From positions 1 through 51,325 of the forward strand of contig JABUFA010000027.1 in the NCBI GenBank assembly GCA_013314755.1: 51,325 bases of DNA, read 5' to 3'. The notes under the pieces were generated by a model. It was not told the DNA's origin. It made no database searches and saw only the letters and a list, made by a program, of their open reading frames with translations. The DNA comes from Chthonomonadia bacterium. Lineage in GTDB: Bacteria; Armatimonadota; HRBIN16. Positions 13,080 to 32,471 of the stretch are shown here, piece after piece (position 1 is the stretch's first letter; every line of letters starts with the position of its first letter). The translations under genes and the position numbers were made by a program.

Positions 13080-13465
13080 AAACGCGAGCACAGCAGGATA
13101 TGGAACTCGCCGAGAAACTGGTGCGGGAGGTAGAACAGCAAAAAAAGGAAGTTCGCGACATCTACGGAGGGCTATGTCATTCGTTCCCTGTAATGGTGCG
13201 CACCTGCGGGTTGTGTCAGGCGCTGGCGTTCTCCAAAGCGAAGGCGGAAGGGGGTAAGGACGACCGCGCCAGAGCACACAGCCTCCTGCTGAACCACATT
13301 CAGCATTTACTGAACGTGCAGGGTGACCTTCTGCAAGTGGTGCGCGACGCCTCCGCCAGCGAGTATATGCTCTACACACGGCGAGTGCTCAGCGCGTGGA
13401 TTTACTTCAAGCGGTTCGCCGAATCCATTCTGAAAGTCTCCAGCGCAGGGGAAGGAGGAGAGTAG
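13076..13465 (+). CDS. cmr5: Type III-B CRISPR small subunit Cmr5
   Basis: A 129-residue all-helical small subunit (MKTRAQQDMELAEKLVREVE...), the expected size and fold for Cmr5, which lines the inner filament of the effector. Typical features are RTCGLCQALAFSKAK and the C-terminal YMLYTRRVLSAWIYFKRFAE. The start at 13076 is given by the ATGA overlap with cmr4; a longer open frame upstream in this phase is spurious because it lies within cmr4. Confidence 0.9.
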   Translation: MKTRAQQDMELAEKLVREVEQQKKEVRDIYGGLCHSFPVMVRTCGLCQALAFSKAKAEGGKDDRARAHSLLLNHIQHLLNVQGDLLQVVRDASASEYMLYTRRVLSAWIYFKRFAESILKVSSAGEGGE

Positions 13466-13467
13466 CT

Positions 13468-14550
13468 ATGAATATCGAGGCGCGGCGCAGAGCAATCAGT
13501 AGCCTTAATCTTAAAGAGGCTCAGCACGCAGGGCTTGTGCTCCACCGTTATCTCAGCAAGCATGACGACACCCACGAGGGGGCGAAAGACCTGTACACTC
13601 AGGCACAGAACAGCGCGGCTTCCCCTGTGTACGCATACGCCTTCGCCCGCTGGAAGGAGCACCTGCAAAAGCTGGGCAATACGCGCCTCTTCGCGGCGAC
13701 AGCCTCATCTCCCATCGCCGTCGGGCTGGGCAACGAGAGCGTGCTGGAGGTAGGCTTGACCGTTCACCACACTTACGGAATGCCCATTATCCCCGGCTCC
13801 GCGCTCAAAGGGCTGTGTCGGCGTGGCGCCGCTCGCCTGCAGGACGAGGGAAAAATCACCCGGGAGCAGTTTGAGGTACTGTTCGGTTACTCTAATGGTG
13901 ATGGGGACGCCTCGGCAGGGTACATCACCTTCTGGGATGCCTGGTACGACCCTGAATCAGTGGAAGGCAAGCCTTTCCATCGCGACGTGATTACCGTGCA
14001 TCACCCCGACTACTACTCCAGCAGAGGCGCAAACGCATTCCCAACTGACTTCGACGACCCGAACCCGGTGCCTTTTCTGGTGGTGAAGCCCGGTGCACGC
14101 TTCCTGTTCGCCCTGACTGTCCCCGACCAGGCGTGGGGAGCATTTGCCGAGAACCTGTTGAAGTGGTGTCTGCAGTATCTGGGCGTGGGCGCCAAGACCA
14201 ACGCAGGTTACGGCTTCTTCCGTACAGACGAACCAAAACAACCCACCGAGCCGGCAAAACAGAGCACTGCCGCACAAACCATACTGCCTCCTTCTACGGG
14301 GCGTGAAGTCTGGCAGAGTGTAACCGTCAGTTACAACCCGGGTCAGCGCGTGCTTCAGGTTCAGCGTCAGCATCAGGGGCAAACGCAGGGCGCATCCGCC
14401 GATGCCCAGCGCACCCAGCAACTGCTCAACAGCCTTTCCGCTTCCGCTCGCGAAAAGCTAACCACCGGCAAAAGGAGACTGCTGGCAGATGTGGAGATTG
14501 AAGTAAGCGGCAACCGGCGAACCATTGTCAAAATCATCCCGAAGGAGTGA
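13468..14550 (+). CDS. cmr6: Type III-B CRISPR subunit Cmr6
   Basis: A 360-residue RAMP protein at the head of the complex with Cmr1. Core motifs are TASSPIAVGLGNESVLEVGLTVHHTYGMPIIPGSALKGLCRRGA, GYITFWDAWYDPES, RDVITVHHPDYYS and GVGAKTNAGYGFFR. About 115 extra residues follow the glycine-rich loop; they are Gln-rich and probably flexible (QRQHQGQTQGASADAQRTQQ), ending in a small beta segment (DVEIEVSGNRRTIVKIIPKE). The start at 13468 follows GGAAGGAGGAGAG. The C-terminal tail is longer than the minimal family core and could be a lineage-specific RNA- or partner-binding extension. Confidence 0.9.
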   Translation: MNIEARRRAISSLNLKEAQHAGLVLHRYLSKHDDTHEGAKDLYTQAQNSAASPVYAYAFARWKEHLQKLGNTRLFAATASSPIAVGLGNESVLEVGLTVHHTYGMPIIPGSALKGLCRRGAARLQDEGKITREQFEVLFGYSNGDGDASAGYITFWDAWYDPESVEGKPFHRDVITVHHPDYYSSRGANAFPTDFDDPNPVPFLVVKPGARFLFALTVPDQAWGAFAENLLKWCLQYLGVGAKTNAGYGFFRTDEPKQPTEPAKQSTAAQTILPPSTGREVWQSVTVSYNPGQRVLQVQRQHQGQTQGASADAQRTQQLLNSLSASAREKLTTGKRRLLADVEIEVSGNRRTIVKIIPKE

Positions 14551-14557
14551 CAGAGCG

Positions 14558-15799
14558 ATGAAGTTGATTACGTCGCTGGGAACCAACACTTACAAAGAAG
14601 CAACCTATGTCTGGGGAGAGAAGCAATGCAGGACGAATATGTTCACCGATGCAGTGGTGAAGTGGCTCAAGCCCCAGACGGTGCTTGTTTTGCTGACCAA
14701 GGAAGCGGAAGACACGAACTGGCCCATTCTTCGCGAGAAATTGAACCGTCACCGAGTCGCAGTGCAAACCCTGCGCATCCCCGATGGACGGAACGAGGCA
14801 GAGGTCTGGGAAATCTTCGACGCGGTTACTCAGCAGATACATGAGGAAGAGCGACTGGTTATCGACATCACCCATGCTTTTCGCTCCCTGCAGTTCGTGC
14901 TGTTCGTAGTCAGTGCCTTCCTGCGGGCGGTGAAGCGTGTGGAGATCCAACACGTACTCTACGGCTTACACCAGCAAGGGCAATCATCGGATACCCCCTC
15001 CCCTGTTATGGACCTGCGCCTGATGCTTGACCTGCTGGACTGGATGGAAGGGGTACGGCGATTTCAGGAACTGGGCGACGCCCGTTTCATCGGAGAGACC
15101 CTGCAGAGAACGCAGGACGATATCTATCGTAAAGACGCAACGACAGAGGGGTCCAAACCCACCACACTCAAGACCGCTGGAAAGGAACTGCTGGCATTAT
15201 CAGACAGTCTACAGGCTCTGCGCGTTGTGGATGTGATGCGCTCTGCCAGGAAGCTGGTGAGCATCACGGAAAAAGCGATACATGAGGCTCAAATCTGGGT
15301 AAAGCCATTTGCTCTGCTGATAGACCGGGTAAGGCAGATGGCGGTCCAGCTGGCACATGAAAAGCCTGACGAACTGAACTTTGACACTCTCGAAAAGCAG
15401 ATGCATACTGTTCGCGCTCTGGTACAGTACAGGCAATTTGTGCAGGCTTTGCTTCTACAAAGGGAATGGCTGCTCAACTACGTGATGTGGCGGATTAACA
15501 GGGAAAAAAACTGGCTTCATCATGATTCGCGTAGAGAGGTTGAAAATTTCCTGAACCAGGGCGTTAAAGCCGTCGAGGACAAACAAGACCCTAACCTCTC
15601 TGCTCTGGACAAGTACATGGGACAGGACGAAATCCGAGACGTTGTGCAGCTATGGTCGAAGATAGTAGACCCGCGCAACGACTTTGCACACTGCGGAATG
15701 CGACAACATACCCAAACTCCAGATGATCTTCGGCAAAAAGCAACCGAATTTGCTCAACAGTTAAAAAACTTGCTGGAGAGCGCAAAAGCACAATTTTGA
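14558..15799 (+). CDS. CARF-HEPN ribonuclease (Csx1/Csx2, TIGR02221-like)
   Basis: A 413-residue ancillary type III effector. The N-terminus MKLITSLGTNTYKEATYVW...FTDAVVKWLKPQTVLVLLTKEA and VIDITHAFRSL matches the CARF domain of the Csx2/TIGR02221 group, a sensor for cyclic oligoadenylate made by Cas10. The C-terminal helical domain carries the HEPN RNase motif R-x4-H at R373 to H378 (PRNDFAH). Predicted role: non-specific RNA cleavage when Cmr2 senses target RNA. It starts 7 bases after cmr6 with GGAG upstream and is the last gene of the operon. With Cas10 lacking HD, this is the only visible collateral nuclease of the system. Confidence 0.88.
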   Translation: MKLITSLGTNTYKEATYVWGEKQCRTNMFTDAVVKWLKPQTVLVLLTKEAEDTNWPILREKLNRHRVAVQTLRIPDGRNEAEVWEIFDAVTQQIHEEERLVIDITHAFRSLQFVLFVVSAFLRAVKRVEIQHVLYGLHQQGQSSDTPSPVMDLRLMLDLLDWMEGVRRFQELGDARFIGETLQRTQDDIYRKDATTEGSKPTTLKTAGKELLALSDSLQALRVVDVMRSARKLVSITEKAIHEAQIWVKPFALLIDRVRQMAVQLAHEKPDELNFDTLEKQMHTVRALVQYRQFVQALLLQREWLLNYVMWRINREKNWLHHDSRREVENFLNQGVKAVEDKQDPNLSALDKYMGQDEIRDVVQLWSKIVDPRNDFAHCGMRQHTQTPDDLRQKATEFAQQLKNLLESAKAQF

Positions 15800-19292: not shown

Positions 19293-19322
19293 TTGACTTT
19301 TTCAGCGAATATCTGGTATATT
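19293..19322 (+). promoter_or_regulatory. Promoter of the porin-amt-glnB cluster
   Basis: TTGACT (19293-19298), an 18-base spacer and TATATT (19317-19322). Transcription would start near 19329, giving a leader of about 220 bases before the first gene at 19548. Confidence 0.7.
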
Positions 19323-19358
19323 TTGCCCAGTAAAACGTTGTGACAAAGATGTCCCCCG

Positions 19359-19422
19359 AAACGACAGACGCAGGCGTCTCTACCGAAGCAGGTAGGCAAG
19401 CGGTCTGTCGTTTATCGTTTTT
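19359..19422 (+). ncRNA. Structured 5' leader, candidate attenuator
   Basis: Within the long leader of the ammonium-transport cluster, AAACGACAGAC (19359-19369) and GTCTGTCGTTT (19403-19413) form a perfect 11-bp stem. It encloses 33 bases that contain an inner hairpin CTACC-GAAGCA-GGTAG (19380-19395). The closing arm is followed by ATCGTTTTT, so the structure could act as an intrinsic terminator or attenuator. A second hairpin CCGTC-GAA-GACGG lies at 19426-19438. It does not match the conserved cores of riboswitch classes I know, including the glutamine class. Its position suggests nitrogen-responsive control, which is inference. Confidence 0.45.
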
Positions 19423-19547
19423 GCACCGTCGAAGACGGCAACACGCACTGCAGCGAACCCGTTACCCCGCGACGCCGCGACCGGAGAGGCTTCGTGCCAC
19501 TCCACGTACTTCCCAAAACAAAACAACTTTCAACAGGAGGTACATGT

Positions 19548-20585
19548 ATGCGACGTTTCGTCTTTGGCGCACTGATGTGCGCGCTGTGGGCGGTTCCTGC
19601 AGTGCAGACGACCGCCGAGCCAAAAGTCCAGCTGAGCGGCTTGCTGGACACGTACATGGGTTACAACTTCAACAACCCGCCAACCGGCGCGAACCAGAAC
19701 ATCGTACGCGCCTTTGACCAGAAGTCTGGCTCGCTGGAGCTGAGCCTGCTGGAGGTCAACATCACACAACCCGCGGAACCCGTTGGGTTCACACTGACTC
19801 TCACCACGGGACGCACTGCCGACCTGGTGCACTACAACCTCAGTGAGGACCGCTACAAGCTGTTTCAGCAGGCGTTTATCACCACACAGGCCGGTGCATG
19901 GACGGTCGACATCGGCAAGTTTGTGACCGCGCTGGGAGCAGAGGTTATCGAATCGGCGTCCAACGACAACTACTCGCGCTCCCTGCCGTTCGTGTACGCC
20001 ATCCCCTTCTACCACACGGGCATTCGCGGGACCACCAGCCTGGGAAGCGGCTGGGGATTTCAGGCAATGGTGGTGAACGGCTGGGACATCACCGAAGAGA
20101 ACAACGGCAAGAAAAGCATACACGCCGCCCTGACCTACTCCAGCGACCGCCTCAGCTTCGTGCAGAACGTGATAACTGGCGACGAGGCGATTTCCCCTGC
20201 CAGCGGTGCAAGAACGGTGTTTGACACCGTGCTGTTCTACAAGGCTGGCGACGACAAATACGGCATCAACTTCGACTACGGCGAAGACAAATCGGCGTCG
20301 GCAAAGTGGACGGGTTATGCCCTCTACTACCGCCGTGCCCTTGCCAATGACCGGGCGCTTGCCCTCCGCTACTCGTGCCTGGACGATAAGGATGGCTTCC
20401 GCACGGGCGTGGCGCAGAGGCTCAGCGAGTTCACCATCACCTACGAGTACCCCATCGGCTCCTCTCTCAGCCGTTTCGAGGTGCGTTTCGACAGCTCCAA
20501 CCAGCCATTTTTCCTGGATGGCGGTGGAGCCGCTACGAAAAAGCAGCAGGTCACCGTGGTGTACTCGCAGGTATTCCGATTTTAG
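19548..20585 (+). CDS. Outer-membrane beta-barrel protein (BBP2-like)
   Basis: A 345-residue exported protein. The signal peptide (MRRFVFGALMCALWAVPAVQTTAE) is followed by alternating amphipathic strands (KVQLSGLLDTYMGYNFNNPP, FTLTLTTGRTADLVHYN, YGINFDYGEDKSA) and a terminal aromatic residue (YSQVFRF), as expected for an outer-membrane porin. It resembles the putative OmpL-like/BBP2 beta-barrel family. The start at 19548 has CAGGAGGTACATGT upstream. It heads the amt-glnB cluster (12-base gap to amt), so it may let ammonium or another small nitrogen source through the outer membrane; that link is inferred from synteny. Confidence 0.78.
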   Translation: MRRFVFGALMCALWAVPAVQTTAEPKVQLSGLLDTYMGYNFNNPPTGANQNIVRAFDQKSGSLELSLLEVNITQPAEPVGFTLTLTTGRTADLVHYNLSEDRYKLFQQAFITTQAGAWTVDIGKFVTALGAEVIESASNDNYSRSLPFVYAIPFYHTGIRGTTSLGSGWGFQAMVVNGWDITEENNGKKSIHAALTYSSDRLSFVQNVITGDEAISPASGARTVFDTVLFYKAGDDKYGINFDYGEDKSASAKWTGYALYYRRALANDRALALRYSCLDDKDGFRTGVAQRLSEFTITYEYPIGSSLSRFEVRFDSSNQPFFLDGGGAATKKQQVTVVYSQVFRF

Positions 20586-20597
20586 GAGGGGACAACG

Positions 20598-22462
<1,865 letters not shown>

Positions 22463-31478: not shown

Positions 31479-31526
31479 AAATTTGAAAAAATACCGCGCA
31501 GCGAATCGCCGCCAAGGCGATACGCA

Positions 31527-31617
31527 TCCGCTAGGGGAGCCGATGACGGCTGAGACCTCGCGCAAGGCGAGGAACCCTCGGAACCTGATCCGGGTAATGC
31601 CGGCGTAGGGAAGCGGA
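31527..31617 (+). ncRNA. TPP riboswitch (THI element)
   Basis: P1 is TCCGCT (31527-31532) pairing with AGCGGA (31612-31617). All conserved THI-box blocks are present: AGGGGAGCC, GGCTGAGA (31548-31555), GAACCCT (31572-31578) and GAACCTGATCCGGGTAATGC followed by CGGCGTAGGGAAG (31581-31613). The variable P3a stem is CCTCG-CGCAAGG-CGAGG. The aptamer is followed by an intrinsic terminator at 31645. The only gene downstream is a DUF1559 pilin-like protein, not a thiamine biosynthesis or transport gene. Confidence 0.95.
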
Positions 31618-31644
31618 GTGGCGAACGAACCGTGCAATCCTCGC

Positions 31645-31673
31645 GCCGCTTCTCTGCCGAGAGGCGGCGTTTT
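31645..31673 (+). terminator. Riboswitch expression-platform terminator
   Basis: GCCGCTTCTC / GAGAGGCGGC stem (one G-T wobble) with a TGCC loop, followed by GTTTTCG. It lies 27 bases after the TPP aptamer, the usual place for a ligand-controlled terminator. A further hairpin TTTCGCTT-GCGCG-AAGCGAAA (31671-31691) follows and ends at the ribosome-binding site. Confidence 0.8.
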
Positions 31674-31706
31674 CGCTTGCGCGAAGCGAAAAAGGAGGGT
31701 TGTACC

Positions 31707-32471
31707 ATGTTCGCAAGGCGCGGTTTCACGCTGATCGAGCTTCTGGTGGTCATCGCCATCATCGCCCTGCTGGCGGCGATACTGTTCCCCGTCTTTGCCC
31801 AGGCGCGGGAGCGGGCGCGAGTGGCTACCTGCATCTCCAACGCTCGCCAGATTGGGCTGGCAGTGCGCATGTACGTGCAGGACTACGACGAGACCTTCCC
31901 CATCTTCCACGCCTACAACAGCCAGCCCCCTGCAGGTCAACCGGGGCATCTGGGCGTGGAGGTCTCGCTGGAACCCTACACGAAGAACAAACCCATCTTC
32001 AAGTGCCCCAGCGACACCGGCAGTCCCTACCAGCAGCGCGACGTGCCGGGCACAAACTCCTACTGGCAGGCGTACGGTTCCAGCTATCGCTTCACGCACT
32101 GCTGTTACACCGTTATCTGCGGATTCTCCACACAGAACAACCTGGAGGTCTGCAGTAACTTCGGCTATCAGCAGAAGATTGTCACCGATGCCAGTTTCGT
32201 CGAGCCGGCGCGAACCCGTATCATGCGCGATGAGATGTTCCCCTTCTTCAGTCGAACGGTGCCGGGTTACGAGAAGTACGGCTACGACAACGACCCACCC
32301 TACGACTACTTCCGCATGTGGCACACGCAGGGTGGCAGCCTGATTTTCGCCGATGGGCACGCCAAGTTCGTCGCCTCGTCCAAAGAGTTCGACGAGACAC
32401 TGGTGTCGCCAGAAGGTTTGCCCAGCGGCGGCGGCTCCTACCCGAACGAAAACTACTGGCTCTGTGACTGA
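31707..32471 (+). CDS. DUF1559 pilin-like protein under a TPP riboswitch
   Basis: A 254-residue pseudopilin-like protein: [20 protein letters not shown], then [33 protein letters not shown], and a clean H-x9-DG motif in [17 protein letters not shown]. The middle region is Cys-rich ([20 protein letters not shown]). The start at 31707 has AAAGGAGGGTTGTACC upstream; the longer frame from 31632 begins inside the riboswitch terminator and is rejected. It is the only gene between the TPP riboswitch and the converging PDZ gene, so thiamine diphosphate should repress it. No thiamine-related motif is seen in the protein. Confidence 0.87.

Follow-up and report, generated by a model that had tools for sequence, protein, structure and literature searches.

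Paired six-base-loop hairpins ahead of a porin-amt-P-II gene cluster: a probable variant of the ANTAR target

Background

The stretch of DNA analysed here (the window, 51,325 nucleotides of a Chthonomonadia bacterium) carries a porin-amt-P-II gene cluster behind a long structured leader, which raises the question of how these genes may be controlled. A preliminary description, made from the letters alone, considered that the location calls for nitrogen-linked control, that the leader resembles no known class and that it may be an attenuator or a new cis-regulatory RNA.

The leader and its genes

The good promoter, the leader of about 220 bases and the three downstream genes of the preliminary description are all present in the sequence (Table 1). 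Transcription would start at about position 19329, giving a leader of about 219 nt up to the porin ATG at 19548. The leader was searched at the DNA level in 61 genomes. Besides the window's own genome, eight of the nine other genus members gave a match, and the 51 phylum genomes from outside the genus gave none. The genus genome without a match (G007) is 77% complete and its amt gene starts 458 bases from a contig end. In five of the eight relatives the match was limited to approximately 19442-19558. Among the genus leaders TTGAC is found in all nine and TATA in eight. The genus, which we take to belong to the Armatimonadota, has among the GTDB contigs named relatives that include HRbin16, SKYG83 and SKYG40; bacterium HR16 is unclassified in the NCBI listing.

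No Rfam family, the glutamine riboswitch included, matched in the leader even at E <= 5. The sole Rfam match in the window is a TPP riboswitch (31523-31628, + strand, 80.1 bits), which directly precedes an ORF with a type IV pilin-like signal (31632-32471, + strand) that is not evidently a thiamine gene. Elsewhere in the window (13396-15799, + strand) a RAMP-superfamily protein (PF03787) is followed by a 424-aa protein without a Pfam match, and this locus may belong to a type III CRISPR system.

Table 1. Features of the leader and of the genes behind it (window positions; hairpin loops in square brackets, with loop positions 1 and 4 given after the sequence)
Feature	Position	Strand	Remark
Sigma-70-like promoter TTGACT-18-TATATT, TG upstream of -10	19293-19322	+	10/12 matches
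P1 GAC[AAAGAU]GUC (A1, G4)	19342-19353	+	hairpin in 8/9 genus leaders
Intrinsic terminator T1	19359-19422	+	stem 19359-19369/19403-19413, apical hairpin 19380-19395, U-run 19418-19422
P2 AGAC[GCAGGC]GUCU (G1, G4)	19366-19379	+	overlaps T1 5' arm; 8/9 genus leaders
P3 CGC[ACUGCA]GCG (A1, G4)	19444-19455	+	8/9 genus leaders
P4 CGC[GACGCC]GCG (G1, G4)	19468-19479	+	9/9 genus leaders
H5 hairpin GGAGaGGCuucguGCCaCUCC, no U-run	19483-19503	+	97.1% of cells paired, 10 leaders
Helix able to cover the Shine-Dalgarno sequence (SD), ACGUACUUCC with GGAGGUACAUGU	19504-19547	+	SD 19535-19540
First gene, BBP2 (OmpL-like) porin	19548-20585	+	Pfam; query from second codon
amt, ammonium transporter (Ammonium_transp)	20598-22103	+	Pfam
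P-II (GlnB/GlnK)	22121-22462	+	Pfam

Terminator T1

The perfect 11-bp stem, the smaller hairpin enclosed in it and the T-run that had been described were confirmed: the stem is formed by AAACGACAGAC and GTCTGTCGTTT, the inner hairpin reads CTACC[GAAGCA]GGTAG and the T-run is TTTTT. The 76-nt T1 segment folds with a predicted energy of -28.3 kcal/mol (z -3.42) and the 218-nt leader with a z of -2.70; in both cases 1 of 200 shuffles was equally good. The T1 stem is retained in eight of the nine genus leaders, the exception being L009, which supports the proposed attenuator. In these eight leaders 89.7% of the cells of the helix are paired, with a single pair altered on both sides in two rows, and a consensus fold of the 5' half, computed on the same leaders with no structure supplied, drew the P1 helix and T1. 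Aligning the amt leaders of relatives and looking for covariation, as had been proposed, thus gave a conserved stem and little covariation.

The leader of G008 (L009) and a second copy in the G006 assembly (L106) have no U-run after the first stem and no proper P1, but both keep P3, P4 and H5. The first attenuator seems to have been lost in this clade, and its loss next to a retained second part would fit a separate function of the latter. The G006 assembly itself contains an intact version (L008, G006:C461) and one with a decayed attenuator (L106, G006:C72) that resembles the leader of G008; they represent two strains or two copies.

In seven of the nine leaders (L001-L007) the loop of T1, in the window at 19380-19395, holds an extra hexaloop-like hairpin with G4, at differing places. 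It is either due to chance or a third ANTAR hairpin; these hairpins were not counted as elements, as no shared column passed the rule of the shuffle test given below.

Two tandem pairs of hexaloop hairpins

The leader contains two tandem pairs of hairpins with stems of at least 3 bp and six-base loops, P1-P2 and P3-P4, the second of which (19444-19479) had been overlooked in the preliminary description. In the window P1 and P2 are separated by 13 nt, and P3 and P4 by 12 nt; across the genus the P1-P2 linker measures 13-17 nt. These lengths lie within the 2-25 nt of a published curation rule (PMC8164766). P2 shares bases with the 5' arm of T1, an overlap that is absent from L009 and L106; P3-P4 has no U-run and no overlapping terminator. 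In the alignment of the nine genus leaders loop position 4 is G in all four loops of every row. Loop position 1 is A in P1 and P3 and G in P2 and P4 of the window, and among the genus leaders it is A in 4 of 8 P1, 5 of 8 P2, 8 of 8 P3 and 6 of 9 P4 loops, the remainder being G. The conserved blocks are GAC.A.G...U (P1), CAGAC...G..GU (P2), CGCAYUGYAGC (P3), CGCRACGCCGCG (P4) and GAGAGGC...GCC.CUC (H5). Two of the three pairs are retained in P1 and in P2 of L009, and one P3 pair is lost in the leader of G001 (L007).

The alignment was compared with column shuffles. To count as a site, a hairpin had to occur in at least seven of the nine rows, with two G-C pairs in a stem of 3 bp or more, a purine as the first loop base and G as the fourth. 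The amt leader has four such sites forming two tandem pairs, and 400 column shuffles gave a mean of 0.0175 sites and no tandem. When only A was allowed at position 1 there was no tandem in at least seven rows; P3-P4 passes at six of nine, which no shuffle reached. No conserved tandem pair was found on either strand of five other alignments of the genus (gltB upstream, glnA coding, porin coding and two ANTAR loci), in which single conserved sites do occur (0 to 4 per strand). No pair of P1-P2 is altered on both sides. Covariation is small, and the case at the genus level is built on the conserved loops and on the recurrence of the design.

The stems of the P hairpins are 3-4 bp long and, taken alone, these hairpins have predicted energies of -0.7 to -2.3 kcal/mol at 37 C, against about -28 kcal/mol for T1, so that the P hairpins would depend on a binding protein, with termination as the default. 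Loop positions 1 and 6 of P1 are able to pair (A-U, G-C or G-U) in six of eight leaders, and a tetraloop form is therefore possible there.

The second pair and the ribosome-binding region

P3-P4 lies 69-104 nt ahead of the start codon and 3-4 nt ahead of H5, which adjoins the helix able to cover the SD. A consensus fold obtained without a supplied structure contained P3, P4, H5 and a 4-bp helix covering the SD. In the ten leaders 77.8% of the cells of the SD helix are paired, its middle being weak, and the sole covarying cell in the region from P3 to the SD is one H5 pair changed from GC to AU in one row.

Among actinobacterial ANTAR RNAs, about 37% of those examined in one study extend over the RBS or the start codon (PMC8164766). 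It is possible, if rather doubtful, that two ANTAR gates are combined in one leader, P1-P2 acting on the terminator and P3-P4 on porin translation, with ANTAR proteins that accept G1 or A1. The translational role of P3-P4 is tentatively suggested because it has no terminator, because it stands 3-4 nt from H5, which in turn adjoins the SD helix, and because of the actinobacterial precedent. If this were true, a single phosphorylated regulator would set both transcription and translation of the ammonium-uptake operon.

Right after P4, a hairpin like GGA[GAGGCU]UUC (G1, G4) is possible in seven of the nine leaders (L002-L006, L008 and L009); it competes with H5, and 3 bp are not attainable in the window. 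Such hairpins were not counted as elements, since no shared column passed the rule and since they compete with H5. The P3-P4 pattern had no match in viral contigs. Amt relatives are encoded on 98 viral-contig stretches (L211-L290), the 80 listed being 40-56% identical; this search gave distant amt genes only and was not used.

The same design at glnA and other nitrogen loci of the genus

The succession of P1, P2 and terminator was also found before glnA, at all nine loci of the genus (from nine of the ten genomes). Here P1 is mostly AGGC[GAGGUA]GCCU, the linker measures 12-15 nt, and P2, GAGG[GACGCU]CCUC, is the 5' arm of the terminator, the stem of which is followed by UUUU at eight loci and by AUUU in L154. 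A promoter, TTGACTCC...TATAYT, lies directly ahead of P1, its -35 being lost at a contig end in L152. The sequence GAGGGACGCTCCTC is identical in all nine leaders and the 3' arm of the terminator is variable. At all nine loci both loops have G at position 1, and G4 is kept throughout. With A or G at loop position 1 the glnA alignment gave two tandem pairs (in seven of nine rows) and none in 400 shuffles, one of the two pairs including a site in the 3' arm of the terminator; with A only there was no site. A third conserved column falls in that 3' arm and was regarded as a by-product. The same plan before two nitrogen operons, on different contigs of the same genomes, provides the strongest support for an ANTAR-type leader.

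Upstream of gltB no tandem with an overlapping terminator was found in eight stretches from eight of the ten genus genomes, assuming that the gene start lies inside the stretch, and six stretches at second amt genes contained no tandem with a terminator. Five A1/A1 pairs at the two ANTAR gene loci, with no terminator on either strand, were taken as chance occurrences. A model (R1) was built from 15 tandem pairs, and 150 of the 1818-2755 candidates per genome were scored. Across the ten genomes of the genus it gave a clear score for the amt leader alone; the next matches (E 0.2 and above), inspected by eye at 14 loci, showed no recognisable nitrogen gene and no apparent orthology and were also taken as chance. 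Run over 13 loci, R1 missed the pairs of G045 and G032 (see below) at their own sites (sense strand, in register), where it gave weak hits. A general model from mixed genera was dropped, because MAFFT misaligned the short sequences.

ANTAR proteins

An ANTAR domain is encoded in nine of the ten genus genomes and in none of 14 control genomes. Its presence alone is weak evidence, since the domain is widespread among phylum members (147 of 201). The window's genome (G000) encodes two ANTAR proteins, both of the REC-ANTAR type. The best PDB match of both is 1s8n, a 'putative antiterminator' which we take to be Rv1626 (E 4.7e-62 and 4.5e-52), and further matches are the EutV structures 6wsh/6ww6 (E 5.8e-44 and 1e-41). 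In an alignment with EutV, for which a numbering offset of two was inferred, R142, K143, K149 and E160 are kept in both proteins, K147 is replaced by R and Y164 by F. A gene for a GAF-GAF-HisKA_2 kinase lies directly 3' of one of the two ANTAR genes; EutW is likewise of the HisKA_2 type.

The contact to G4 is described as the only base-specific one in ANTAR-RNA recognition (PMC8934654), so that G at position 1 may be tolerated. Changes at A1 of eutP nonetheless reduced induction (PMC3369931).

Dual hexaloops in the wider phylum

Outside the genus, dual hexaloops with A1 and G4 in both loops and with long stems were found in four genomes. In G045 one precedes glnA and another P-II, and both overlap a terminator; G032 has one ahead of P-II and one ahead of amt; in G070 the pair lies between amt and a gene judged porin-like by eye; the fourth genome is G066 (L109, P1 at 1211). 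A further A1/G4 pair, with a terminator, precedes glnA in G048. The G066 pair stands before a BBP2 porin gene followed by amt, which is the layout of the window (Pfam). G066 belongs to another family of the phylum, and its porin frame extends to 2684. The combination of porin and amt genes with a dual-hexaloop leader may be older than the genus. Rfam 15 was silent even on A1/G4 examples from this phylum.

A part of the amt matches, taken in list order, supplied 80 upstream stretches. The count covered 75 of them (213,737 bases), after removal of two that belong to the genus and of three that measure 58, 131 and 196 bases. With stems of at least 5 bp, five tandems were found in four genomes, against a shuffle mean of 0.275 (maximum 2 in 40 rounds) and one on the opposite strand. 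All five lie in the 62 stretches that come from ANTAR-bearing genomes, and the remaining 13 stretches have none, which could be due to chance alone; the set of ANTAR-free genomes was entered by hand. In the same 75 stretches there was no clear excess with 4-bp stems (6 against 2.6 in shuffles, maximum 8), with 3-bp stems (14 against 11.45) or when a terminator was required and either A or G was allowed as the first loop base (4, with 5 on the opposite strand). Tandems with both a terminator and A1 numbered 2; the opposite strand had 0 and shuffles gave 0.2. Among the 40 stretches examined first, with 4-bp stems, G1/G4 loops (10) were more frequent than A1/G4 loops (5).

A glnA match was obtained in 108 of 121 genomes (nine of them of the genus), and 28 loci outside the genus were scanned. 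At 24 of these 28 no tandem with a terminator was found; further pairs outside the genus were one with a 4-nt linker and G1 in the second loop (G034), a doubtful one with G1 loops (G116) and an A1 pair without a terminator (G107).

Comparison with known systems

The closest parallels are the eut leaders of Enterococcus faecalis and their regulators EutV/EutW. These leaders likewise carry a pair of small hairpins whose six-base loops have G4 (PMC3369931, PMC8934654); P1 and P2 show a C-G closing pair over A-U as there; and in eutP, as here, P1 is free and P2 forms part of the terminator's 5' arm (PMC3369931, PMC8934654). The regulator is a REC-ANTAR protein, and one of the two encoded here stands beside a kinase gene, as EutV has EutW. 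In contrast to the eut system, the present leaders, which are described from sequence, have G1 in many loops and precede other target genes, and the amt leader combines two pairs, the second without a terminator. The linkers are also longer than the 5-12 nt of eut, where 14 nt reduced induction (PMC3369931).

The target functions agree with those of ANTAR targets reported in 2012 before P-II, ammonium transporter, glutamine synthase and glutamate synthase genes (PMC3369931), the ANTAR motifs before P-II and ammonium transporter genes being among them; unlike these targets, as far as that source describes them, the operon here is led by a porin gene. In actinobacteria, hairpin pairs near the RBS or the start codon have been proposed to act on translation, a likeness to P3-P4, and A1 and G4 are kept in more than 50% of the RNAs, so that variation at position 1 was already known (PMC8164766). 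Compared with these RNAs, the second pair here stands farther upstream, at the distance from the start codon given above, and the helix able to cover the SD is a separate one. With the glutamine (glnA-type) riboswitches the leader has nitrogen genes in common but, in contrast, no Rfam match. Searches of open-access full texts listed no publication that treats leaders of this kind in the genus or the phylum.

Alternative explanations

A constitutive attenuator, with T1 as a plain terminator of fixed read-through and the small hairpins as by-products of conserved sequence, would agree with the far greater stability of T1 than of P1-P4, with the near absence of covariation in P1-P4 and with the loss of the T1 U-run from the G008 leader and the second G006 copy. 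We nevertheless regard it as unlikely: aligned tandem hexaloops are absent from the 400 column shuffles and the five genus alignments and present in both nitrogen leaders, and one of the best conserved parts, P3-P4, is not within T1. The confinement of the DNA match to about 19442-19558 in five of eight relatives, a conservation beyond the needs of a terminator, and the position ahead of amt and P-II could instead point to a riboswitch for glutamine, 2-oxoglutarate or another small molecule, with its aptamer at 19442-19547 and T1 or the SD helix as its platform. Against this stand the lack of an Rfam match at E <= 5, a consensus fold that is a row of short hairpins with no junction, and the glnA leader, which has the plan of hexaloops and terminator in common but not this sequence; a riboswitch is therefore very unlikely.

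Least credible, to the point of being negligible, is attenuation by a leader peptide or another ribosome-dependent control. The window has a GTG frame that opens at 19340, and GTG occupies that column in five of nine rows, but a leader peptide was looked for in the nine leaders and not found: no start codon is common to more than five of them, and neither the length nor the sequence of the shared frames is constant.

Proposed mechanism and significance

The leader is very probably an ANTAR-type antitermination leader, a variant of the ANTAR target. As neither pair of the window has A1 in both hairpins, the element is not classed as a plain ANTAR target. What has been shown is the set of sequence features and how far they are conserved, the parallel at glnA, the presence of REC-ANTAR genes and the kinase gene next to one of these. 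Of the earlier interpretation, attenuation and the link to nitrogen were borne out, the latter by the same design standing before glnA, and the view of a new cis-regulatory RNA outside known classes was not supported, the dual-hexaloop plan of ANTAR targets being present.

From these features we infer binding, antitermination, the signal, the acting ANTAR protein and the role of P3-P4 as follows. When no active REC-ANTAR protein is available, 19359-19369 would pair with 19403-19413 and T1 would end most transcripts. The active, phosphorylated protein would bind P1 and stabilise P2, which takes four bases of the T1 5' arm and the bases following; T1 would thereby be blocked and porin-amt-P-II transcribed. 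P3-P4 may also be bound by this protein, which would give a second level of control, probably translational. The glnA gene and the porin-amt-P-II operon would then belong to a single regulon for nitrogen assimilation, presumably turned on when nitrogen is scarce, a condition suggested by the nature of the targets.

The locus may thus provide a candidate circuit of nitrogen control, in which a REC-ANTAR protein, perhaps together with a HisKA_2 kinase, would act on the leaders of glnA and of porin-amt-P-II, in a genus whose named records are metagenome assemblies. It suggests that G besides A may be allowed at loop position 1. Hairpin pairs of this kind escape an Rfam scan and are worth seeking around nitrogen genes in the phylum.
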